From assembly GCA_905234455.1 (NCBI GenBank), contig CAJOIH010000009.1, positions 1 to 64,000 on the forward strand: a stretch of 64,000 bases of DNA, written 5' to 3'. The notes beneath the pieces were generated by a model. The model was not told where the DNA came from. It searched no databases and was given only the letters and a program-made list of their open reading frames with translations. The stretch's first letter is position 1; the number at the start of each line of letters is the position of its first letter. The position numbers and the translations under genes are program-made. Source of the DNA: an uncultured Bacteroidales bacterium. GTDB lineage: Bacteria > Bacteroidota > Bacteroidia > Bacteroidales > F082. This document shows, in pieces, positions 3,578 through 16,691 of this stretch.

Positions 3578-3585
3578 TATTTTTG
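3578..3585 (+). promoter_or_regulatory. -7 promoter box for the TPR-TPR-TIR operon
   Basis: TATTTTTG matches the Bacteroidota -7 consensus TAnnTTTG and lies 25 nt before the ATG at 3611. A TTTG at 3560-3563 is closer than the usual spacing of a -33 element. The box overlaps the more upstream in-frame ATG at 3575, which therefore is unlikely to be the start. Confidence 0.65.
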
Positions 3586-3610: not shown

Positions 3611-5677
3611 ATGAAAAGAAGCTTTCTACTTGTTTTTATGGCGATGTCCCTTCTCGCTTCCGCCCAGACCCAGCAGGGCTATGTGAAGACCAAAGGCCGT
3701 ATGGACGCCCAAGGCAACCTCATCCCCGGACAAGGGCTGAAAGGGGCCACGGTCTCTGTGCAGGGCCTTACCGCCGTGTTGGTGAACTCCGACAACGGCG
3801 ATTTCTCCTTCCCCGTGAGCAATGGGCAATTCCGCTTGGAATCAGTGAATAAGAAAGGCTACCAACTGGTGGATATGGATGCATGCCCAAGGAATTACAA
3901 CTACTCGGGGAATCCACTCTATATCGTGATGGAAACGCCCGACCAGCAGCTGCAAGACAAACTTACCGCCGAACGAAAGATCCGCCGCAACCTTCAAAGA
4001 CAGCTTCAGGAACGGGAAGACGAGATTGAAACGTTGAAAGCCAACCAAAAGATCACCGACGAAGAGTATTGTCAGGCCTTGCAAAAATTGTATTCCGACC
4101 AGGAAAGCAACGAACAACTTATTTCCGACATGGCCAAACGTTACTCCGAATTGGATTACGACCAACTGGACGAGTTCTACCGCCAAGTGTCATATTGCAT
4201 TGAGAACGGCGAGCTGGTGAGGGCCGACTCGTTGCTGAACACCAAAGGCGATGTGACCCAACAGGTGGAAGAACAGCTAAGGAAAGGCCAAGCCATCAAA
4301 GAAAAAGAAGAACAGCTTGGCAAAGCCAAAGCGGCCCATGCCGCCGATCGGGAAGAACTTGCCAAACGTTGCTACAGCTATTTTGAGGCTTTTGCGGCCC
4401 AGCATCTCAATGACACGGCAGCCTATTACCTTGAATTACGGGCGAGTTTGGATAGTGCCAATGTGGATTGGCAACTGACAGCCGCCGAGTTTTTCATGGA
4501 ATATGTAGGGGATTATGACAAGTCGTTCGAGATATATCAACGAGCCTATCGGACGATAATGCAGCGCCCAGATACCTACCAAGTTGAACTGTTCAAGCTG
4601 TATAACAACATGGGCATCTATTACTATTATATAGGTGACATCGATTTGGCCAAGACAAATCTTTTAAAGGGTATCGGCATCATGAAGCAGATGCGGGGAG
4701 AAAACGCCTCCGATCTCTCGTCATCATACGAGAATCTGTCAGTCATCTACGACGATGAAGGCACGTCCGACTCAGCTGTGTTTTATGCCGAGAAAGCAAG
4801 GAGTGTTGAAGCTGCTTCCTTCGGCAAGGAGTCGCCAGGAATGGCCAGTATATTGCACAACCTTGGAATGAACTACATGCATTATGCAATGGCCGAAGAC
4901 ACCGAAGAATACTACGACAAAGCATTGGAATACTACCAAGAGGCCTTGCGAATTGCACGATTGAACTTCGGAGAAGAGAGCTCGACTGTCAGCAATATCT
5001 ACAATAGCATGTCCGCATTGTATGATTATCGCAAGGACTATCGAAAAGCATTGGAATATGCACAAAAAGACGTGGAGACTACAAAGGCGATCTACGGCGA
5101 GCACCATCCATTGGTGGCCGAGAGTTATAACGGTATGGGATTGACTTGTTACTATTTGGGTGATTATGAACGGGCCGCAGCATGCTATTACAAGTCCCTC
5201 ACCATGATGAAAAGGTATTTTGCCAATGAACAGACCAGCAAATACGAGGTTTATGTGAACCTTGGCTCCCTTCACCTTAAGCAGCAGGAGTACGACAGCT
5301 CAGCCTACTATTATTCAAGCTTTATCAACGCCTACGAGAAAATCTACGGCAAGCATCGCGACATTGCCTTGGTCTACGGAAAACTGGCCAATGTTTATAT
5401 CGAACAGAAAGACTATCCCGAGGCAATCCGCCTCCTGTTAATAGCTGCCAATATGGAGGAAGAATTGGGGGGCAGCAACAAAGTGTATCTTGCCACTTAT
5501 TATCTTAACATCGGCGTTTTGTACGGCAAAATGGAGCAATACGACAAGTCGTTGCCTTATTTAGAGAATGCTTATCGGATCAGAAAAGAGGTTTATGGAG
5601 AGGAAGATGAGCGTGCCGTGAACCTGCTGGAAAGAATCAATACGACAAAAGAGGAGATCAAGAAACAAAAGAAATAA
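3611..5677 (+). CDS. Exported TPR protein with N-terminal CarboxypepD_reg-like module (copy 1)
   Basis: A 688-aa protein. The chosen start MKRSFLLVF gives a clean Sec signal peptide cut near SAQ-T; the upstream in-frame ATG at 3575 would add 12 residues that break it. After the signal comes a carboxypeptidase-regulatory-like beta module (about 22-110: GQGLKGATVSVQG, NSDNGDFSFP), a charged coiled coil (about 110-250: AERKIRRNLQRQLQ, DQESNEQLISDMAKRYSELD), then kinesin-light-chain-type tetratricopeptide repeats of about 42 residues to the end (for example YNGMGLTCYYLGDYERA). It has no lipobox and no T9SS sorting domain, so it is probably periplasmic. It is the first gene of an operon with a close paralogue and a membrane TIR protein. 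TPR arrays usually bind peptides or proteins; the ligand is unknown. Confidence 0.82.
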   Translation: MKRSFLLVFMAMSLLASAQTQQGYVKTKGRMDAQGNLIPGQGLKGATVSVQGLTAVLVNSDNGDFSFPVSNGQFRLESVNKKGYQLVDMDACPRNYNYSGNPLYIVMETPDQQLQDKLTAERKIRRNLQRQLQEREDEIETLKANQKITDEEYCQALQKLYSDQESNEQLISDMAKRYSELDYDQLDEFYRQVSYCIENGELVRADSLLNTKGDVTQQVEEQLRKGQAIKEKEEQLGKAKAAHAADREELAKRCYSYFEAFAAQHLNDTAAYYLELRASLDSANVDWQLTAAEFFMEYVGDYDKSFEIYQRAYRTIMQRPDTYQVELFKLYNNMGIYYYYIGDIDLAKTNLLKGIGIMKQMRGENASDLSSSYENLSVIYDDEGTSDSAVFYAEKARSVEAASFGKESPGMASILHNLGMNYMHYAMAEDTEEYYDKALEYYQEALRIARLNFGEESSTVSNIYNSMSALYDYRKDYRKALEYAQKDVETTKAIYGEHHPLVAESYNGMGLTCYYLGDYERAAACYYKSLTMMKRYFANEQTSKYEVYVNLGSLHLKQQEYDSSAYYYSSFINAYEKIYGKHRDIALVYGKLANVYIEQKDYPEAIRLLLIAANMEEELGGSNKVYLATYYLNIGVLYGKMEQYDKSLPYLENAYRIRKEVYGEEDERAVNLLERINTTKEEIKKQKK

Positions 5678-5688
5678 AACAATTGCCC

Positions 5689-7362
5689 ATGAAACAAATC
5701 GCTCTACTCAGTGCTATCCTGCTCGCTAGCCTCATCGCTTCCGCCCAGACCCAGCAGGGCTATGTGAAGACCAAAGGCCGCATGGTTAACGGCCAACATG
5801 TGCCAGGACAGGGCTTGAAAGGAGCCGTGGTCTCCTTGCATGGATACAATGCCGTATTGGTGAACTCCGATGACGGATTGTTCTCCTTCCCGGTAGCTAC
5901 GGCCCAATTCCGTTTGGACTCGGTGAATAAGAAAGGTTACCAACTGGTCGATATGGATGTCTGCCCCCAAAGCTATTCCTACTCGGAAAACCCGCTGTAT
6001 ATCGTCATGGAAACGCCTGACCAGCAACTTCAAGACAAACTGTCCGCCGAAAGGAAAATACGTCGAAACCTCCAAAAACAGCTTCAGGAAAAGGAAGACG
6101 AGATAGAGGACCTGAAAGCCAGCCAGAAGATTTCGGACGACGAATACCGTCAGGCTTTGCAAAAACTCTATGCCGACCAGGAAAGCAACGAGCAACTCAT
6201 CTCCGACATGGCCAAACGCTATTCCGAGCTTGACTATGACCAATTGGACGAATTCTATCGTCAGGTCTCGTATTTCATCGAGAACGGCGAACTGGTGAAG
6301 GCGGATTCCCTCTTGAACACGAGGGGTGATCTCAATCAACAGGTAGAGGAACAGTTGCAGAGAGGACAAGCCATTCAGGCGAAAGAGCAACAGATAGAGC
6401 AGGCAAAATCTGTTCATGCCGCTGACAATGAAGAGCTTGCGAAACGATGCTATAGCTATTTCGAGACTTTCGCAGCCCAGCATCTGAACGATACGGCCGC
6501 CTATTATCTTGAGTTGAGAGCCCGCTTGGACACCACCAATGTGGATTGGCTGTATGACGCTGGACTGTTCCTGGAAGGTTATGTCGGCGATTATGATAAA
6601 ACGCTTCAGTATTATCGAATGGGACTTCGGCAGTCGATGCAACAATTTGGAGAAAACAAAGCAAAGACAGCTTTGTTTTATGCTGCTATCGGCGTGGTGA
6701 GTTATTATTTAGCCGATTTTGAAACTGCCATGGAATATCTTGACAAGTCCCTCAAAATCCGCCAATCACTTTTTGGAGAAAACCACCCGGATGTTGCCGA
6801 AAGCTATGCCAATATCGGTTCGATCTATTCCATCACTGGACAATTTGACAAAGCTTTGGAATGTCATCGAAAGTCTCTTTCCATCAACTTGGCTTGCCAT
6901 GGAGAAAACAATTCGGATGTGGCCTTTAGCTACCACAATATAGGTTTTGCCTATGCCAGAAGCGGCAACCACGAAAAAGCTATAGAATATTACCTGAAGG
7001 CACTGGAGATAGCCATCCCTACATTAGGTGACAACCATCCCATTGTGGCCGGTTTCTGCCAGAATATCGGATTGGTGTACGCCTATTTGAAAGATTATGA
7101 GAAGGCATTGCAATACATGGGCCAGGCAAGCTCCATATTGATTTCTACGGTAGGGGAAAAGCACCCTAATCTTGTATATGTGTATCAAAACATTGGATTT
7201 GTTTACTTCAGTCAGGGTGACTATGACAAGGCTCGGGAGTATTTCGATAAGGAGTTGGAGATTGTGGAAACAACCTTTGGACCGGAACATCCGAGAACCC
7301 TAGAGGCAAAGGGGACTGTTGCTGCCTACGAGGAACGAATGAAAGAATCCAGCCATGAATAA
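5689..7362 (+). CDS. Exported TPR protein with N-terminal CarboxypepD_reg-like module (copy 2)
   Basis: A 557-aa paralogue of the preceding gene. The start MKQIALLSAILLA gives a signal peptide ending in SAQ-T. Residues up to about 280 are nearly the same as copy 1 (QTQQGYVKTKGRM, NPLYIVMETPDQQLQDKL, SNEQLISDMAKRYSEL), and a stretch of about 44 bp at 3659-3702 recurs almost unchanged at 5737-5780. The C-terminal half diverges: it holds about six regular 42-residue TPRs with the YxNIGxxY...DKALEYxxKxLxI...GExHPDVA pattern. It lies 11 nt after copy 1 and overlaps the TIR gene by 8 nt, so the three are very likely translated from one mRNA. The shared N-terminus with variable TPRs suggests a common docking part and different ligand-binding parts (inference). 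Confidence 0.82.
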   Translation: MKQIALLSAILLASLIASAQTQQGYVKTKGRMVNGQHVPGQGLKGAVVSLHGYNAVLVNSDDGLFSFPVATAQFRLDSVNKKGYQLVDMDVCPQSYSYSENPLYIVMETPDQQLQDKLSAERKIRRNLQKQLQEKEDEIEDLKASQKISDDEYRQALQKLYADQESNEQLISDMAKRYSELDYDQLDEFYRQVSYFIENGELVKADSLLNTRGDLNQQVEEQLQRGQAIQAKEQQIEQAKSVHAADNEELAKRCYSYFETFAAQHLNDTAAYYLELRARLDTTNVDWLYDAGLFLEGYVGDYDKTLQYYRMGLRQSMQQFGENKAKTALFYAAIGVVSYYLADFETAMEYLDKSLKIRQSLFGENHPDVAESYANIGSIYSITGQFDKALECHRKSLSINLACHGENNSDVAFSYHNIGFAYARSGNHEKAIEYYLKALEIAIPTLGDNHPIVAGFCQNIGLVYAYLKDYEKALQYMGQASSILISTVGEKHPNLVYVYQNIGFVYFSQGDYDKAREYFDKELEIVETTFGPEHPRTLEAKGTVAAYEERMKESSHE

Positions 7363-8485
7363 TGCTTTCAAATATTTTGCCTTCATCAGTTATAGCTCGA
7401 AGGACATTGCCTGGGGCAAGAAGCTTCAGAAGAAGCTGGAACACTACCGGATGCCGGCCACCCTATGTAGCGAGCATGGCTGGGAACGCAAGCCGATAAA
7501 ACCGGTGTTCTTTGCACCTACCGACATCCAGCCGGGAGGGCTTTCGGAAGAATTGCGCGAAAGGCTTAAAGATTCGCAACACCTCATCGTCATCTGCTCG
7601 CCCAACTCCGCCAAATCCAAATGGGTAGGGAAGGAGATAGAATATTTCCATGGTCTCGGACGCCCCCAAAATATCCATTTCTTCATCGTGGATGGTTCGC
7701 CCCATAGCGGTGACCCTGACACGGAATGCTTCAACCCCGTTGTCGAGGAATTGGGCCTTCCTGAGATCCTTGGTGCCAACGTCAATGAGAAAATCTATCG
7801 AAGCCCACAACTCAACCGTGAAAGGGCTTACGTCCAGCTCATATCCAAGATGCTTGGCGTGGAGTTCGATGCCATCTGGCAACGGCATAAACGCTTGAGG
7901 ATTAGAAAAGCAGTGTTCTGGGTCTTGGGAGGTTTGGCTGTCATCGCCGTCATGTTGGGCATCTGGAAAGCCAACCAGTCGTTCGACGCACAAATCCATT
8001 TGAACGAAGCTTCGATCCACAATGAGCAGCTGCCCCCACTCCAAAACGCATTGGTGACCATGACTCTCGATAATGAAACCAAGGAAGACACCATAGCCTC
8101 CCTGGAGACGTGCTGCGCTTTTGCCAATATTCCCCACCGATATCTCCATCAACCGGTGCGATTTGTGGTTTCCGCCCAAGATTACCTCCGGCTCGACACG
8201 GTTGTCGCCCTTGAGAAGACGACCACGTTGAATGTCCGTCGTGACCCGGCTGTTTACGGAGAAGTCCATTTCTGGCTCTGGAACCCCCATACGGAGGAGT
8301 TCGTCACCGGTGAAACCTTGCTGGTTGACGGAAAGGAAGTGTCATCGGGAACCGATGGACGGGTGTCGCTGTTCATCCCTGTGGAAGACCAGAAACGGGT
8401 ATATTCTGTCCAGGCCGCTTTCCCCTTATCCATGGATTCGGTCATTATGCCTCTGGCAGAGAACGCTATCGTGTCGTTAAAATAA
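7355..8485 (+). CDS. Membrane-anchored TIR-domain protein
   Basis: A 376-aa protein with an N-terminal TIR domain (about 5-175), one transmembrane helix (about 187-204: FWVLGGLAVIAVMLGIW) and an extracytoplasmic beta-rich C-terminus (about 206-376, carboxypeptidase-regulatory-like: GEVHFWLWNP, SSGTDGRVSL). The TIR core has AFISYSSKD, a BB-loop-like segment DIQPGGLSEEL and SPNSAKSKWVGKEIEYF; the Glu in KWVGKEI (Glu94) sits where TIR NADases carry their catalytic Glu. There is no signal peptide, so the TIR domain should be cytoplasmic and the tail periplasmic. It overlaps the TPR gene by 8 nt. Known bacterial TIR domains cleave NAD+ or make cyclic ADP-ribose signals, often in phage defence; whether this one does is inference. 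Confidence 0.85.
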   Translation: MNNAFKYFAFISYSSKDIAWGKKLQKKLEHYRMPATLCSEHGWERKPIKPVFFAPTDIQPGGLSEELRERLKDSQHLIVICSPNSAKSKWVGKEIEYFHGLGRPQNIHFFIVDGSPHSGDPDTECFNPVVEELGLPEILGANVNEKIYRSPQLNRERAYVQLISKMLGVEFDAIWQRHKRLRIRKAVFWVLGGLAVIAVMLGIWKANQSFDAQIHLNEASIHNEQLPPLQNALVTMTLDNETKEDTIASLETCCAFANIPHRYLHQPVRFVVSAQDYLRLDTVVALEKTTTLNVRRDPAVYGEVHFWLWNPHTEEFVTGETLLVDGKEVSSGTDGRVSLFIPVEDQKRVYSVQAAFPLSMDSVIMPLAENAIVSLK

Positions 8486-8520: not shown

Positions 8521-8528
8521 TATTTTTG
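8521..8528 (+). promoter_or_regulatory. -7 promoter box for T9SS adhesin gene
   Basis: TATTTTTG, a perfect TAnnTTTG match, lies 27 nt before the ATG at 8556. It marks a separate transcription unit from the TIR operon just upstream and supports the start at 8556. Confidence 0.65.
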
Positions 8529-8555
8529 TGGGTGAATAATCAAGTAGTTACATCT

Positions 8556-11039
8556 ATGAAAAGACTGTTTACCCTATGTGCGATGCTCCTCCTGATGGGT
8601 GGTGTGTTCGCTCAAGTGCTTGTCAATGAGACTTTTGAAAATGGAAATACCGTCGGTCAATCCCCTGTGGGCTGGATCTGCGACGACAACGGCTGGAAAG
8701 CTGGCATCACCATTCCCGACGATAACGAAGCCCGCGGAAGAAAGCCCCATACCGGCGATTGGTACATGTATGCCACCTACAACACGGATGTGTGGATCTA
8801 TAAGGAAATCAACGTGACCACGGGGAGCTATTACCGGGTGTCGTTCTGGTATTCCACCTGGCATGTCGACCATTTCGACCTGGAAGTGAGAGCCGGTGCA
8901 AGCGCCACCCCTTCGGCCATGAACGTGACGGTGGTGCCTCAGTTCCAAGTCGCCAACGAGGAATATGAACAAGCCACGGCGGTGTTCCAAGCGCCGAGCT
9001 CAGGAGCCTTTTATGTGGGCTTCCATAGTGTAGCCACCAATAACCCCTGGTACCTCTCCATCGACGATGTCGTCATCGAACAGACTGCACAATACTTCTT
9101 TGATATTGAACAACTCACGGCCGACACCTCGGTCTACTTCGGCGAGTCGGCCTTCCTGCGCTTCCTGCTCACCAACACGGGCGAACAGTCGGATACCTAC
9201 CAGCTGACCAACACCAGCAGCCTTCCCATGGAGTTCTATCAGAACGGCACCCCTGTGACTCAGGTCAGCCTGCCCTACAACAACACTGTGGAACTGGTTG
9301 CCAAAGTCACCCTTCCCATGGATCTGACCAACAACCAGGAATTGCATGCCACCTTCAACGTGACCTCGGCCCATGCGGCCCCGACACAGTCGGCCGATTT
9401 CCTGATTACCGCTCTGGAGCCTGTGAACAGCTTCCCGCTCAACGAAGGCTTCGACGGCACCGTGTTCCCTCCTGAGGGATGGCTGAATGTGGCCACCAAC
9501 GGTACCTACGTCTTCCAGCGCAGGACCTCGAACGACTGGCCGGCATGCAATCCCCACGATGAGAGTGCCGCCATGGCACGATACTACAGCTATTCCGCTC
9601 CCGAAGGCTGGTCGTGCTCGTTGATTTCCCCCAAGTTGCAACTCAATGCCACCGACAATACCGTGCGTTACTGGATTTTCCGTAACTTCAACAATAACAT
9701 CAACCGACCCGACAGAATCAATGTCTACTATTCCCCGACCACCAACACTGCCGACGGGACCTTGCTCGGCACAGTGCACCGCAACACCATGATGGAGCCT
9801 GTGGTGGGGGAGGTGAGCGACTGGTATGAATACACCTATACCTTCGACAGCCCTGAAGGCTATGGTTTTGTCATCTTCGAAGCCGTGAGCGGCTACGGTT
9901 GGGACCTTTGCATCGACGATGTGTACGTCAACAACACCTCGGTCGACAACAATCCTCCCACCGTCGTCTCACTCAATGGCACCCAGACCTGGGCCGACAC
10001 CGAGATGAACATCACCTTGAGGGTGTACGACGAATCGAATGTGCCCAACCAAATGCAAGCCACCTATACCATCAACGGTCAGTCGCACGACATCACGATG
10101 AACAAGACGTCCAAAGGCAACTACGACTACACGGCGACTTTGCCGGCACAACCCAACCATACCACGGCAAGCATCGTGTTCCACCTGGCCGACGACCTCG
10201 GCCACACCGCCGACTCCGACCCCTATGAGCTGCATTGGGATTGGCAAGCGCCGATCCTCCTGGAGGGCTTCGAAGGCGAACAGTTCCCTCCCGCGGGGTG
10301 GTCGTTGGAATCGATCAACATGAGCTGGTTCACTTGGTACAGGGCCAGCGCCGAATGGGCTACCAACTGGTTCGGCGACGAATATTACGTGGTGCCGCCA
10401 CAAGGCGTGAAACAAGCTGCACTCGAATGGGATGAGTCGGAAGAGTGGGGGCCGCAGGACGAAGCACTGGTCACTCCTTTGCTCGCCATCGACCGCCCGA
10501 CAGTGTTGACATTTGAGACTTCTTGCCAATACGGCATCTCCCAATACAATGACCATTATAAAGTGGATGTCCTGAATACCAATACGGGTTCGTGGACCAC
10601 CCTCTGGGATGCGGTGGATCAGCCCGAATACCTCAACAACTATCTGGAGCCGGTCAGCATCGATCTGTCGCAGTACCAAGGCTCGAATATCCGGCTGCGT
10701 TGGCGTGGCCATAACAATGGGCAAGACGTCCTGACCTTCTCCTGGTTCATCGACAATGTCAAAGTGGTGGCCACCGATACCACCAACGTCGAGGTGGCTG
10801 AGATGGATCTCAATGCCGTCAGAATGTTCCCGAACCCGACCCAGGGCGTGGTTTATATCGAATCAGCCAACACCTTGATTAGCATGGCGTTGTATGGCAT
10901 CAAGGGTGAAATGGTGGAAAGCCGTCCGGTGGGGGCAAAGGAACTTGAGCTCCATTTGGAAGGCTATTCCAAGGGCGTTTACTTTATCCGCCTGGTCACC
11001 GACGAGGGTGTGACCACCAAGAAACTGATTGTGAAATAG
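8556..11039 (+). CDS. T9SS-exported protein with choice-of-anchor J / cleaved-adhesin domains
   Basis: An 827-aa exported protein. The start MKRLFTLCAMLLLMGG gives a signal peptide cleaved near FAQ-V. Three jelly-roll-type domains of the choice-of-anchor J/cleaved adhesin kind are visible by their openings and closings: ETFENGNTVGQSPVGW (about 25-190, ends YLSIDDVVIEQ), NEGFDGTVFPPEGW (about 300-470, ends LCIDDVYVNN) and EGFEGEQFPPAGW (about 575-750, ends WFIDNVKV). A linker of Ig-like sequence separates them. The last 75 residues are a type A T9SS sorting domain (MFPNPTQG, SKGVYFIRL, TTKKLIVK). Such domains occur in gingipain adhesin regions and bind host or polysaccharide ligands; the target here is unknown. 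The methyltransferase gene follows 21 nt later. Confidence 0.85.
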   Translation: MKRLFTLCAMLLLMGGVFAQVLVNETFENGNTVGQSPVGWICDDNGWKAGITIPDDNEARGRKPHTGDWYMYATYNTDVWIYKEINVTTGSYYRVSFWYSTWHVDHFDLEVRAGASATPSAMNVTVVPQFQVANEEYEQATAVFQAPSSGAFYVGFHSVATNNPWYLSIDDVVIEQTAQYFFDIEQLTADTSVYFGESAFLRFLLTNTGEQSDTYQLTNTSSLPMEFYQNGTPVTQVSLPYNNTVELVAKVTLPMDLTNNQELHATFNVTSAHAAPTQSADFLITALEPVNSFPLNEGFDGTVFPPEGWLNVATNGTYVFQRRTSNDWPACNPHDESAAMARYYSYSAPEGWSCSLISPKLQLNATDNTVRYWIFRNFNNNINRPDRINVYYSPTTNTADGTLLGTVHRNTMMEPVVGEVSDWYEYTYTFDSPEGYGFVIFEAVSGYGWDLCIDDVYVNNTSVDNNPPTVVSLNGTQTWADTEMNITLRVYDESNVPNQMQATYTINGQSHDITMNKTSKGNYDYTATLPAQPNHTTASIVFHLADDLGHTADSDPYELHWDWQAPILLEGFEGEQFPPAGWSLESINMSWFTWYRASAEWATNWFGDEYYVVPPQGVKQAALEWDESEEWGPQDEALVTPLLAIDRPTVLTFETSCQYGISQYNDHYKVDVLNTNTGSWTTLWDAVDQPEYLNNYLEPVSIDLSQYQGSNIRLRWRGHNNGQDVLTFSWFIDNVKVVATDTTNVEVAEMDLNAVRMFPNPTQGVVYIESANTLISMALYGIKGEMVESRPVGAKELELHLEGYSKGVYFIRLVTDEGVTTKKLIVK

Positions 11040-12256: not shown

Positions 12257-13225
12257 ATGTCATACGATGTTTTTATAAGCTATAGAAGAAAAGGTTCAGG
12301 CGCTGGCGTGGCGGGCGAAATGCAGTCGAAATTGCAAAGCCGCGGCTACAAGGTGTTCCTGGATGTGGACAATATCGGCAGCGGAGCCTTCCCTGACCAG
12401 ATCGACAGTGCGATACAACAGTGCAACGACTTCCTGCTGATCCTTTCACCAGGCATGTTGGACCGTTGTTCCGACGAAGAGGATTGGGTAAGGCATGAGA
12501 TTGTGCTTGCCGAAAAATACGGAAAGAATATTGTTGGAGTGTCGTTGCCGGGATTCCTCATGCCCACGGCGGAAGAGCTGCCTGCAGAGTTGCACGAGAT
12601 TCCTGAGAAGCAGGTGTTCCTTTGGTCGCATGAGTATCGCCATGCCTCTTTTGAGAAGATTGTGGAGAATCTCAAGACCACTTCCTTGAAAAAGAAACGC
12701 GTCAGACGCAACTATTTGTTGACAGGAGCCGCAGTGGTACTTCTGGCCGTCGGCTTGTGGTGGCTCATTCCGACCTCGGCCGTTGGTGGCACCGAGTCCG
12801 ACCTTACGCCCACCAAGGAGGAGGTGGTGATCGACTATAGGCAGGTGTTCGCCCAAGCGGTGAACGATACCTTCGCATCCTTCCTGAAAACGGGCGACAG
12901 CCTCTTGAGGCTGGTTCCGGACAATCCGACCGATCAACAGGATTTCGCCTTGCTTATGGAAGGCATTGGCGAATACCAAGGTGCCATGGACTATGAAAGC
13001 AACTATCCTGGGGTCGTTTCCAACAAATCGAAAGCAAAAAAGGCCCTCGACTCGCTCATGGTGGTTCGTAAGAATTGGTTCAATGAGGAATTGGAGGCAG
13101 CATCCCAGTTCCTGAAAGCGGATCTCGTTGATTTCGCCCATTACAGATACGAGAATGCCCAAATCCTCGTCCTTCCTGAAGAGACAAGTAAGTTGGAAGC
13201 GGTAGGCAAGAAATTTCCTAAATAA
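12257..13225 (+). CDS. Membrane-anchored TIR-domain protein (second)
   Basis: A 322-aa protein: TIR domain (about 2-140), one transmembrane helix (about 154-171: LLTGAAVVLLAVGLWWL) and an extracytoplasmic C-terminus (172-322) that looks helical, possibly with degenerate TPR-like pairs. TIR motifs are YDVFISYRRKG at the start, a DVDNIGSGAFPDQI BB-loop region, LLILSPGMLDRC and EEDWVRHEIVLA; Glu81 of WVRHEI matches the catalytic Glu of TIR NADases. The protein differs strongly from the TIR protein at 7355 and belongs to another subgroup, with the SYRR opening common in bacterial TIR proteins fused to other modules. It leads an operon with two exported proteins 17 nt and 5 nt apart. An NADase or signalling output is inferred. 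Confidence 0.85.
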   Translation: MSYDVFISYRRKGSGAGVAGEMQSKLQSRGYKVFLDVDNIGSGAFPDQIDSAIQQCNDFLLILSPGMLDRCSDEEDWVRHEIVLAEKYGKNIVGVSLPGFLMPTAEELPAELHEIPEKQVFLWSHEYRHASFEKIVENLKTTSLKKKRVRRNYLLTGAAVVLLAVGLWWLIPTSAVGGTESDLTPTKEEVVIDYRQVFAQAVNDTFASFLKTGDSLLRLVPDNPTDQQDFALLMEGIGEYQGAMDYESNYPGVVSNKSKAKKALDSLMVVRKNWFNEELEAASQFLKADLVDFAHYRYENAQILVLPEETSKLEAVGKKFPK

Positions 13226-13242
13226 GAATTAAAATACTGAAT

Positions 13243-15300
13243 ATGAGAATAATACGAGTTTTACTCAGCTTTTTTTTGATGGCAAGCGGTCTTCAGTTGT
13301 TGGCGCAAGCCAATTGCTATGAGACTACCCGAAAGCTTGGTATCGAGTTGTTCGAGAAAGGGGATCTGCCCGCCGCATCCAAGAAATTCGAAGCGGCGAA
13401 GTATTGCCCCGACAAACCGGCGAACAACGACCTTGATTCATGGATTGCGAAGTGCGTTGTCGTGGTGAGGGTTACCCCCCATGAATTGGTTTTTGAAGCC
13501 TCCGAAGCTGATGAGCAAACTGTCGAGATCAGCACCAATGCCAAGTCGTTTAAAGTGGGAGCGGCCCCCAAGTGGTGTACTGTGAGCCAGCAAGGCAAGG
13601 TGTTGACCGTGTCGTGCGAGGACAATCTGGACATCGTTCCGAGAGAGGCCAAAATCTCCATCCAGTCGGGTGGCAAGGTGGCGTATCTTGACATCGTCCA
13701 GAATGCCGCCGGCCTTGAGCTTGAATTTGATCCTGAGACAGTGGAATTCTCCAGCCAGGAAGAGACCCAATCGGTCGTGGTGACCACCAACGCTTCGGAA
13801 TGGGTGGTGGACTCGCTGCCATCATGGCTGGTGTCGGATAAACGTGCGGATACCTTGCTGCTGTTCAGCACCAAGAACACTTCGTCCCAGTTCCGCGAGG
13901 CGGAAGTGGTGATTCAATCCTCCGGCCAGTATTTCGAACTTCCGGTTCGCCAGCATCCCGGTGATACCGTCATCGATGCCAGCAGGAAAGAGCTGGTGCT
14001 TCCCAGCGATATCAGCATGGAGAAGTTCCTCGTGATCAGCAACATGGAGGGTTGGACGGTGGAAACTGCCGACCAATGGATTGAATTGACACCGCTGAAA
14101 GACAGTGTCCAAGTGGTAGTGCAGGAAAACCAATCGCTCTTCAGCCGTCATGGCAGTTTGCGCCTGAAATCAGGCCGCCGCTATCGTGATGTCGTGGTTC
14201 ATCAAGGTCCCCATGTCTCCACATTTACCATGCCTGAGTCGGAGTTGAAAAACTACAACGTCACCAGTAATGATACCATCATGGTGAGGAGCGTCCCTTC
14301 GGATTTGGTGGTCTATATGGACGACCAATATGTACAAACCACTCCATTTGCATGCCAGGTCGACTTCGAGCACCACTCCCTGCTGATGGGCTTTGAACGT
14401 CGTGAGTTCCTCTTCAACGAGCAACAACAGGATATCGTGTTTGAACCCGGATTGCGTTTTGCCACCCTCACCCTTACCGCACCCACCAACATCGGTTTGA
14501 GGACAGGCTTTATCAGCGCCAACGATTTCGGGGCCTATTCGCATTTCCAGGCTTCGATGCCCCTGGTCAAACAGTTCGCTACCGACTCGATCAAGGCTGA
14601 CGGATACCATTTCATGGTCGGCCCGGTGTATAGCCCGATCAAATTTGCTGCCATCTATGCAGGTGTGGGCATGGGCATCCACGAGGGACCCTCGTCAAAA
14701 GGAGTGCCGAATGTCAACCTCGATTACGAGGCAGGCGTCATGGGCATGTTCAAGAACGCCATGCTCTCCATGGGCTTCAGGACTACCCGCTGGGGCTTTG
14801 GCAAGTCGTCCAGCAGAACTACCTTCGTGTTTGGCATAGGAGGTTACCTGAAACGTTATTATGATGCTGAAAAAGGCTATTGTGCTAGCGATAGCAGAAG
14901 ATGGGTGTCCCTGAACTATGTGGCCCGTCCCGCCGCTCAAAGCCGTGGCTTGATGGTGGGCGACATGGGGAAAGCCAAAGTCCGGACCTACTTCAAGACC
15001 TTGTACGGACATCCCACCGACACTGTGCATAACGTGGACGCCTCGCTGGGTGTCGTGTTTACCCCGGTGAACGGAATCATCGACATGTGTGCCGGCCTGG
15101 GAGCCGCCTCATCGATCGTCAACAAGGAGTTCGGTATCCCCACCATGGAGGCGGAGGTTGGATTCATCCTCAACTTCTGGAGAATCCCCCTGACGGTCAT
15201 GCTGCACGAATCCGACCTGCTTCACGACACACGCCACCTGTATGTGGATCTGGGAATCGGCTTCCATCTAGGAGAATTTAATCGTAACAGTTATAAATAG
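13243..15300 (+). CDS. BACON-repeat protein with PEGA-like and barrel-like C-terminus
   Basis: A 685-aa exported protein with signal peptide (cleaved near LAQ-A). It starts with a short TPR-like helical pair (about 25-65: IELFEKGDLPAASKKFEAA), followed by three BACON-type beta-sandwich repeats (about 80-155, 165-240, 245-325), recognisable by WCTVSQQGKVLTVS and SIQSGGKVAYLDIVQ-like endings. Next is a PEGA-like segment (about 345-400: SVPSDLVVYMDDQYVQTTPF). The last 280 residues have alternating hydrophobic strands and an aromatic-rich end like an outer-membrane beta barrel. BACON domains often bind carbohydrate or mucin. Tight linkage to a membrane TIR protein (17 nt) suggests an outer-membrane partner of that protein. 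Barrel topology is a guess from the strand pattern. Confidence 0.75.
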   Translation: MRIIRVLLSFFLMASGLQLLAQANCYETTRKLGIELFEKGDLPAASKKFEAAKYCPDKPANNDLDSWIAKCVVVVRVTPHELVFEASEADEQTVEISTNAKSFKVGAAPKWCTVSQQGKVLTVSCEDNLDIVPREAKISIQSGGKVAYLDIVQNAAGLELEFDPETVEFSSQEETQSVVVTTNASEWVVDSLPSWLVSDKRADTLLLFSTKNTSSQFREAEVVIQSSGQYFELPVRQHPGDTVIDASRKELVLPSDISMEKFLVISNMEGWTVETADQWIELTPLKDSVQVVVQENQSLFSRHGSLRLKSGRRYRDVVVHQGPHVSTFTMPESELKNYNVTSNDTIMVRSVPSDLVVYMDDQYVQTTPFACQVDFEHHSLLMGFERREFLFNEQQQDIVFEPGLRFATLTLTAPTNIGLRTGFISANDFGAYSHFQASMPLVKQFATDSIKADGYHFMVGPVYSPIKFAAIYAGVGMGIHEGPSSKGVPNVNLDYEAGVMGMFKNAMLSMGFRTTRWGFGKSSSRTTFVFGIGGYLKRYYDAEKGYCASDSRRWVSLNYVARPAAQSRGLMVGDMGKAKVRTYFKTLYGHPTDTVHNVDASLGVVFTPVNGIIDMCAGLGAASSIVNKEFGIPTMEAEVGFILNFWRIPLTVMLHESDLLHDTRHLYVDLGIGFHLGEFNRNSYK

Positions 15301-15305
15301 TTAAG

Positions 15306-16691
15306 ATGATGAAAAAGAGTTTTGTCACACTGTTATTTGTTTTGTGGAGTTGGGGCGTTTTATCGGCTCAGCAATCCGAGAACCTTTCGAGGAATGTGCT
15401 GGCCACAGTCCCCGAAAACGAAGTTGTCGAATACGGTGAATTCCAGGCCGAACTGATGAAGACACATGACTATAAGACGACCATGGAAGGCTATTGGTTC
15501 TCGTACATCTTCACCACCAAGAATAAATATACCGACAAGTGCAATATCATGCTCAATGGCAATCCGTTGCTCCAAAACAGGAATATGAGAGTGAGGACCT
15601 ACCGTCTGGGTTCATCGTCAGATAAGAGTATCTTTGTGATGAAGAACCTGGATAAGGAAGCTGACGACATCGGATATGGCATGGAGGTGGTCAGGGCATA
15701 CGGCATCCCCCAACTGATCTGCGACAGTGTTCTCTATCTCAATGATGATGGCTATGCTTTTCTGTTGGATGGGAAATCCTATTACAGCCCTTACCAACTT
15801 TCCATTGACAAGCAAGTGAACAAAGTACCCGTTACCTGGCTGATGAGGAAAGTCTACGACAAGGATGCCGTCTCGTTCCCTCCCGAGAAAGCCTCGGCTT
15901 TCAGCCGGCTTCAGAATGGCGATGTCTATTATGAGAGCTTCGAGGGATCGTATTATTACCTCTATCGCGACCAGTATATGCCCAATACCGTCCTGGTGGT
16001 CAATAACAGGACCGTTGAGCTGTTCGACGTGTACAACGAGGACAACTTCGACCTGCGTTTTTCCTACAATGGGAAGCATTGGATGGCTGTCGGCAAAAAG
16101 GACTACAGGGTTGGTGGCGAGAACAAGTCGATTGTTCGCTATTGGATCGATGGCGAGCTCAAATCGGTGGAAGGCTTCGTCATTAGCGATTTTGTGGTGG
16201 CCAACGACGGTCATTATAGCTACAAAGCCTATAAGGATGGCGCTCCGGAAGGCGGAGAGGTGGTCGTGGTTGATGGCCGAGTGGTAAGAAGAAACGCCAA
16301 GGTGTGTTATTATGGACTGAACTCCCAAGGACAGCTCAAGTTCCGTTTCATCAACAACGACAGATATTTGCAGTATGAAAACGAGCTTATCACGGATGTG
16401 ACCGCTGATCTGTACTCCACCTTCTATCCTGACAATGTCTTCAATGGAAGGGAAATCACCGTGAAGTCAAATGACGGAAACCATAAACTGGTCTACCAGA
16501 AAGACCGGCTGTCGGTGAAGATCGATGGGGAGGAGGTGGCCCAAACGTCGCCCTGCTTCGCTCTCTACGATGAGAGTGAGAAGTCTTTCGTGTGGAATGC
16601 CATCGAGACACAAGGGTCGAAGACCGAGTTGGTGATCTATAAATATAAAGTACAAAGCCAATTCTTCAAGAACCTGTTCAAAAAGGATTAA
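15306..16691 (+). CDS. Unrecognised exported protein of the TIR-BACON operon
   Basis: A 461-aa protein that I cannot assign to a family. It has a signal peptide (MKKSFVTLLFVLWSWGVLSA, cleaved near SAQ) and no lipobox, T9SS domain or later transmembrane helix, so it is predicted periplasmic or secreted. The body is rich in short beta strands with repeated aromatic and Gly-Lys turns (for example FSYNGKHWMAVGKKDYRV, GHYSYKAYKDG, NRTVELFDVYNEDNFDLRF), resembling the spacing of propeller blades about 40-50 residues apart. It starts 5 nt after the BACON gene, so it is almost certainly coexpressed with the TIR protein. It may be the ligand-binding part of the same complex (inference). Confidence 0.6.
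   Translation: MMKKSFVTLLFVLWSWGVLSAQQSENLSRNVLATVPENEVVEYGEFQAELMKTHDYKTTMEGYWFSYIFTTKNKYTDKCNIMLNGNPLLQNRNMRVRTYRLGSSSDKSIFVMKNLDKEADDIGYGMEVVRAYGIPQLICDSVLYLNDDGYAFLLDGKSYYSPYQLSIDKQVNKVPVTWLMRKVYDKDAVSFPPEKASAFSRLQNGDVYYESFEGSYYYLYRDQYMPNTVLVVNNRTVELFDVYNEDNFDLRFSYNGKHWMAVGKKDYRVGGENKSIVRYWIDGELKSVEGFVISDFVVANDGHYSYKAYKDGAPEGGEVVVVDGRVVRRNAKVCYYGLNSQGQLKFRFINNDRYLQYENELITDVTADLYSTFYPDNVFNGREITVKSNDGNHKLVYQKDRLSVKIDGEEVAQTSPCFALYDESEKSFVWNAIETQGSKTELVIYKYKVQSQFFKNLFKKD

Follow-up and report, generated by a model that had tools for sequence, protein, structure and literature searches.

What does a membrane-anchored TIR protein do when its gene is read together with those of two exported tetratricopeptide repeat (TPR) proteins? 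The question is raised by an operon at positions 3611-8485 of the window, by which we mean the whole 64,000-nucleotide stretch of contig CAJOIH010000009.1 analysed here, from an uncultured Bacteroidales bacterium of the gut (assembly GCA_905234455.1). In the answer that we favour, this operon would be one half, that which senses and makes the signal, of a TIR system signalling across the envelope. Its likely output side, beyond the view of the first-pass annotation, consists of channel-like proteins with ryanodine receptor (RyR)-type domains, which many relatives encode close to the operon. The established part of this reading comprises gene order, conserved linkage, predicted folds and conserved ligand-type residues; the whole chain, from exported TPR sensors through a TIR-made ADP-ribose signal to an RyR-type receptor on a channel, we regard as evenly poised between right and wrong.

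The TPR-TIR operon and its conservation

Three open reading frames (ORFs) lie in a row on the + strand, and the 11-nt gap between the first two and the 8-nt overlap between the last two, both reported at the outset, were confirmed from the ORF coordinates. The ORF caller takes the longest frame, and some predicted starts are therefore too early. The three-gene arrangement exceeds chance. Its features are as follows.

3578-3585, + strand: TATTTTTG, a possible operon promoter read from the sequence, which fits TAnnTTTG, the -7 box motif of Bacteroidetes
3611-5677, + strand: predicted exported TPR protein 1, 688 aa, with a signal-peptide-like start, a constant part to about residue 296 and a TPR array (Pfam TPR_12, 2.8e-51)
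5689-7362, + strand: predicted exported TPR protein 2, 557 aa, laid out as TPR protein 1 (Pfam TPR_12, 2.1e-59)
7355-8485, + strand: predicted TIR-transmembrane-periplasmic protein, 376 aa, from Pfam matches, alignment and predicted structure
7355-7894, + strand: TIR domain, residues 1-180, from the Pfam match and predicted fold
7634-7636, + strand: codon of Glu94, at the position of the catalytic Glu of TIR NADases, within SKWVGKEI, from alignment
7901-7957, + strand: predicted transmembrane segment, about residues 183-201, Arg/Lys-rich on the TIR side, from hydropathy and a modelled helix
7973-8482, + strand: predicted periplasmic beta-rich part, residues 207-376, from predicted structure and sequence relatives

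The pairing of TPR and TIR genes pointed out by the first-pass annotation proved to be strongly conserved. A search of 173 genomes of the family recovered 32 full-length TIR proteins, counting that of the window; they come from 31 genomes, each belonging to the window's genus. Matches to the start and constant part of the TPR protein occurred in 39 of the 173. A constant-part TPR gene lies on the same strand and at most four genes from the TIR gene in 31 of the 32 genus loci mapped; at the remaining one (L079) two such genes stand farther upstream, also on the same strand. A wider scan of the genomes of named species gave 223 relatives, the best 80 of which were used in the analyses; these are labelled mostly as Bacteroidales-type, many of them from the ruminant gut, with one labelled as Lachnospiraceae. 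Three (L194, L204 and L208) had no TIR ORF by the rule used and were left out, and among the resulting 77 loci a constant-part/TPR gene belongs to the same-strand run in 70, is immediately adjacent in 62 and lies within 8 kb in 73. Many of the genus loci, from which the profile hidden Markov models were built, lie on contigs that also appear among the named loci; the genus count and the 77-locus count are therefore not independent.

Both TPR proteins begin with a Lys-hydrophobic-SAQ stretch that resembles a signal peptide, read by eye, and are predicted to be exported, in agreement with what had first been proposed for them. A crude signal-peptide rule, used for counting, was positive in 101 of 116 constant-part genes versus 217 of 553 other ORFs. 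The constant part common to the two (residues 21-296) shows 73, 89 and 77% identity in three stretches, with a nonsynonymous divergence (dN) of 0.12 and a synonymous divergence (dS) near saturation, whereas their TPR portions share only 19-33% identity; likewise, the constant part was closer than the TPR part in 93 of 100 TPR genes set against window protein 2. A CarboxypepD_reg match to the constant part was weak (0.052) and below the cut-off.

The third protein matches TIR_2 (2.9e-11, 44.3 bits versus a cut-off of 28) and ThsB_TIR (2.5e-9, 37.9 bits versus 21.2) in Pfam and carries, by hydropathy, a single hydrophobic segment from about residue 183, as expected from the architecture first read from it. 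Since this segment is directly preceded by RHKRLRIRK, the prediction places the TIR domain in the cytosol and the final ~170 residues in the periplasm. The predicted model shows a helix at 171-206, a beta-rich periplasmic part and the anticipated TIR fold, which is close, when compared at the level of the whole fold, to the NADase TIRs of SPARTA and SARM1. Glu94 of SKWVGKEI, already placed at the catalytic position by the first-pass annotation, occurs without exception, like Trp90 and Pro83, in all 78 sequences of the alignment, and the S.W..E motif of NADase TIRs is present; by this motif, we take Glu94 to be the equivalent of SARM1 E642. The TIR domain may cleave or cyclise NAD. The invariance of these residues, together with RyR-domain neighbours that suit a nucleotide product, speaks against a TIR that works as a non-enzymatic adaptor or assembly module, recruiting a partner when the TPR proteins fire as in Toll-like receptors, and we judge this explanation very unlikely.

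Over the 77 relatives, mean identity to the window protein amounts to 78.6% in the TIR domain and 45.0% in the periplasmic part. Outer parts that vary around a conserved inner TIR part would be expected of a sensor whose target keeps changing. The periplasmic part has relatives in nine other operons (L111-L119), in the outer part of the membrane proteins that these encode, and in L113, the one of the nine tested, a sigma factor gene (Sigma70_r4_2, 2.5e-6) precedes the membrane protein gene, a recurrence that supports a signal-receiving role. Eight of the nine also encode a protein of 338-356 aa that weakly matches (23-29%) the TPR proteins of the system. The L113 membrane protein has in addition a Peptidase_C39-like part ahead of its transmembrane segment.

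Across the order, the TIR gene is rare and scattered, being found in 7 of 393 genomes at E 1e-60 (its own included) from six families. Its 64% identity to a copy in another family is as high as most values within the genus (54-67%), and this, along with the scattered spread, points to transfer between lineages. A phage- or plasmid-borne origin was discarded, since no related gene occurred in the viral contigs or phages searched and the nine plasmid records retrieved held distant TIRs only (identity ≤34.8%). The relatives of the periplasmic part and of the TPR proteins in L111-L119, the sigma factor of L113 and the lack of phage or viral relatives would all suit a system built of the same trans-envelope TIR parts for sensing envelope stress or attack by rivals, not for defence against phage. 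We think this unlikely, for the patchy spread, the several insertion slots, the tandem arrays and the caspase, CHAT and trypsin-like neighbours described below have the look of a conflict system.

RyR-type domains and channel-like neighbours

Of the 77 loci, 46 encode an RyR-type domain within 8 kb, as do 32 of the 47 whose flanks reach 8 kb or more in both directions; a channel-like protein of more than 600 aa is found at that distance in 30 of the 77 and MscS in 8. Twenty control regions of 16 kb, chosen by hand from long contigs of the genus, gave one generic TPR match and no RyR, channel, TIR or constant-part match (0/20). PF02026, the RyR family, scored above its cut-off in 39 of the 173 family genomes. 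After dropping TIR matches missing the TIR domain and PF02026 matches outside the genus or under the cut-off, 24 of the 49 genus PF02026 matches lay no more than 10 kb from a related TIR place (with TIR-WD40 proteins counted) and 14 near a window-type TIR; conversely, 19 of 54 related TIR places, again with TIR-WD40, had a PF02026 match within 10 kb, where ~0.4% would be expected by chance if 98 genomes of 2.7 Mb are assumed. Among 20 other RyR loci, 8 carry another kind of TIR in one stretch with the RyR-type gene (L221, L222, L223, L225, L226, L227, L228 and L235) and 12 do not. The constant-part TPR set is absent from all eight, and an RCK-RyR channel-like gene is present in all but L235.

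The channel-like proteins combine two to four N-terminal helices with RCK-type parts and a C-terminal RyR-type part. The alternative neighbour is an MscS channel (Pfam MS_channel_2nd) adjoining a soluble RyR-type protein, and some loci also encode a stand-alone RyR protein of ~100 aa. In comparisons of predicted structures, the channel-like protein resembles DMI1/CASTOR, GsuK, MthK and BK, and it is modelled as a double-RCK channel of the CASTOR/GsuK type; two transmembrane helices around a pore region and RCK domains, the features of an RCK-gated channel, are present, and these proteins may conduct ions. The most compact form seen, in L205, is a four-gene run in the order channel-RyR-TIR-TPR (712, 102, 376 and 687 aa), bounded at either end by genes of the opposite strand.

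The probable assignment of the C-terminal part to the RyR type rests on several comparisons. An RyR-type profile matched 34 of the 35 channel-like proteins longer than 600 aa from the 80 loci, and the 35th has an EHxRW motif. Against PF02026 (cut-off 27.4 bits), the stand-alone RyR of L205 (9681-9986) scored 119.4 bits (8.2e-35); four channel-type genes also passed in a genome search (G080, G098, G101 and G114, 27.9-32.5 bits), and other channel-like proteins fell below (25.5 in L092, 14.3 in L155, no match in L205). All 11 matches of the channel profile in PDB up to E 0.1 are RyR chains, the best at 1.4e-6, and alignment of the channel C-terminal part with stand-alone RyR by hhalign gave 87%. 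Four residues, H640, W643, H680 and D697, are invariant in 28 of 28 aligned channels, and at sequence level, by the residue types and spacing given in the text of a 2026 preprint, they are of the same types as the ligand residues H75, W78, H100 and D117 of RyDEP (PMC13232231). According to the same preprint, phage RyR proteins bind or cleave TIR-made cyclic ADP-ribose (cADPR).

The association appears to be partly inherited and partly re-made. On a 78-row TIR tree, a quick build without bootstrap, the RyR-type neighbour label changes at least 17 times, versus a shuffled mean of 24.3, and the channel label 13 times versus 23.8, with 7 changes forced by well-supported branches. Such repeated re-association argues for a working link over a single inherited neighbourhood.

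Some arrays add a caspase-LRR, CHAT, trypsin-like, kinase-like or calcineurin-PQQ protein. Around the TIR gene of L155 (7529-13272) lie genes for a caspase-LRR protein (502 aa), a 288-aa protein and a calcineurin-PQQ protein (608 aa), and ORFs of similar sizes recur in several loci. A 106-aa family (c8) was considered as a further RyR and ruled out from its sequence, and EF-G-like genes (c28) beside some loci were taken as flanks.

Relation to known systems

A close functional parallel is Thoeris, with which the system would share a TIR protein, matching ThsB_TIR as given above, and a likely nucleotide-reading effector. The ThsB models of PADLOC matched the window TIR weakly, at best with 7.4e-8, and no ThsA-type effector (SIR2-SLOG, macro-TM) was found with Pfam among the ten window proteins or the neighbour proteins of relatives scanned, for which reasons plain Thoeris was set aside. 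Unlike in Thoeris, the window TIR is predicted to be membrane-bound, has a periplasmic part and is paired with exported TPR proteins, and the SIR2-SLOG/macro effector is replaced in relatives by RyR-type channel-like proteins. A system that works like Thoeris and lacks its effector feature would be a new variant of TIR signalling, not a Thoeris member.

SARM1 and the TIR-APAZ NADases of SPARTA differ from the window TIR in that they are soluble and triggered differently. FxSxx-COOH/FxsC TIR and TPR-S conflict systems likewise combine TIR and TPR parts, but their TPRs are cytosolic; the window TIR scored 16.8 bits with the FxsC model NF040588, far below its cut-off of 130, and membership of the FxSxx-COOH/FxsC system was rejected. 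Nearer at hand are TIR-transmembrane-WD40 proteins of the same genus, with a related TIR (38-45% identity) and the same membrane position, in which the WD40 follows the membrane segment in one chain (four tested) whereas the window has separate TPR proteins; they are a one-piece version of the TPR and TIR pair. Long TIR-transmembrane proteins occur in L075, L076, L077 and L102, with WD40 in the four tested; in L075 and L076 several such genes follow one another. RCK-RyR proteins lie close to the arrays of L075 and L076, and an AAA-type ATPase is also near long TIR-transmembrane genes.

CASTOR/DMI1 and GsuK differ from the channel-like proteins described here, which add a C-terminal RyR-type domain and have no TVGYG in the 28 aligned. 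No PADLOC or NCBIfam model matched the channel-like or stand-alone RyR proteins tried. Burroughs and Aravind (J Bacteriol, 2020) reportedly treat related domains. We found no description of a bacterial TIR with an RyR-domain channel in the accessible portions of the open-access literature; RyR does not appear in the available passages of PMC7159879, and the terms RyR and ryanodine are absent from PMC9503650. With RyDEP and other phage RyR proteins (PF02026) the RyR domains of the system have in common the family and the four types of ligand residue, but they are bacterial, TIR-proximal and often fused to a channel-like protein, whereas the phage proteins remove or trap the signal (PMC13232231).

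The window's own genome and the proposed mechanism

The window's own genome encodes one TIR of the window type and two constant-part TPR genes, and its channel half would lie at other sites. On contig C17, beside a C69 peptidase gene, there is a 598-aa RCK-type protein with an RyR-like end (CHAN profile 9.9e-46, RyR-like 1e-4), and on C18 an MscS protein with a 352-aa RyR-like partner (2e-153 and 1e-28). The C17 genes adjoin slot B, which carries the TIR operon in nine genus loci; the C18 pair adjoins slot C, the inner site of which is empty in this genome. In locus L132 (7041-10885) of this genome, a 118-aa ORF and the C69 peptidase gene come after the RCK-RyR-like gene.

In the window, htpG upstream on the opposite strand and the gene of a protein sorted by the type IX secretion system (8526-11039) downstream were treated as flanks of the operon. 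The latter was rejected as a fourth member, being more than four genes from the TIR gene or absent in the other 31 genus loci; it occupies the same slot without TIR in L099 and L128. At the window's slot (htpG/methyltransferase), L099, L100 and L128 have TPR genes and lack the window-type TIR. An IS200-like transposase gene (904-1359, Y1_Tnp 1.6e-18) lies close to the operon. Farther on, 12257-16691 encodes a second TIR-transmembrane protein (322 aa), then two proteins whose starts resemble signal peptides, one with BACON repeats and one of 461 aa; it is possibly a second trans-envelope TIR set, which recurs in L100, its TIR being present also in L099.

Several observations weigh against the proposed chain from sensor to channel. 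No RyR-type gene lies within 8 kb at 31 of the 77 loci (16 with less than 8 kb on a side), neither a channel nor an RyR gene stands alongside the window operon itself, and a canonical PF02026 match occurs within 10 kb of just 9 of the 32 window-type TIR genes of the genus. PF02026 gave no match in the own genome, although this is 82.8% complete and its absences are weak, and the C17 channel is a distant family member whose RyR-like match is weak. The 31 loci and the window itself, having no RyR-type gene near, also favour a TIR that is itself toxic and drains NAD once triggered, with the RyR-type neighbours as mere regulators or chance companions in islands, as does the modelled closeness of the TIR to SPARTA, which drains NAD; yet the RyR linkage is far above control and compact channel-RyR-TIR-TPR operons exist, and we deem this quite unlikely. 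Further points concern the single steps. Glu94 is not diagnostic of an NADase by itself, because TLR2, to our knowledge not an NADase, carries a Glu at the aligned position. Since the RyR proteins known from phages remove the signal or trap it, the stand-alone RyR genes might be off-switches, not receptors. No TVGYG-type filter was seen in the pore stretches of the 28 aligned channels; filter-like stretches, in positions not placed relative to the pore, are GGFG in the own-genome protein, SVGFG in L176 (outside the 28) and GYG/GFG in L172. The 17 changes of the RyR label, being below the shuffled mean, indicate that it is also partly inherited, short or missing flanks may have added false changes to the count, and the lack of relatives in phages and viral contigs belongs here as well.

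Linkage and fold bore out in part the trans-envelope interpretation of the first-pass annotation. Neither of the two outcomes named there as refuting it was observed, the TPR-TIR linkage being conserved and the predicted fold being that of a TIR close to NADase TIRs. The sensor and NAD-output roles that the annotation proposed belong with what we infer, namely sensing, NAD cleavage, ligand identity, channel gating and a role in defence. In the mechanism that we propose, the two exported TPR proteins, with their constant N-terminal part and variable TPR face, would pick up a cue in the periplasm or at the cell surface and then act upon the periplasmic part of the TIR protein, whose membrane helix would relay this to the cytosolic TIR. 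The TIR would then cut NAD into an ADP-ribose-type signal, our leading guess being a cADPR isomer. RyR-type domains would read this signal and control either the CASTOR/GsuK-like double-RCK protein or MscS with its RyR-like partner, and the cell would be arrested or killed once the channel opens, most likely as a defence against phage or some other attacker. RyR proteins that stand alone may bind the signal or take it away.

Bacterial TIR systems, as far as we know, are thought to sense inside the cell; the window system appears to take its cue outside and to carry the signal across the inner membrane. That Bacteroidales hold a complete bacterial counterpart of the animal cADPR-ryanodine receptor route, with swappable channel or protease outputs, is a tentative idea that in our estimate falls somewhat short of even. 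Such a route would form a trans-envelope branch of TIR immunity, possibly related to the origin of the ligand domain of animal ryanodine receptors. With TIR proteins and RyR-domain channel-like proteins side by side, the disputed connection of cADPR to the ryanodine receptor would become testable in a small bacterial operon, and the RyR domains with which phages counter TIR signals would gain a bacterial context.

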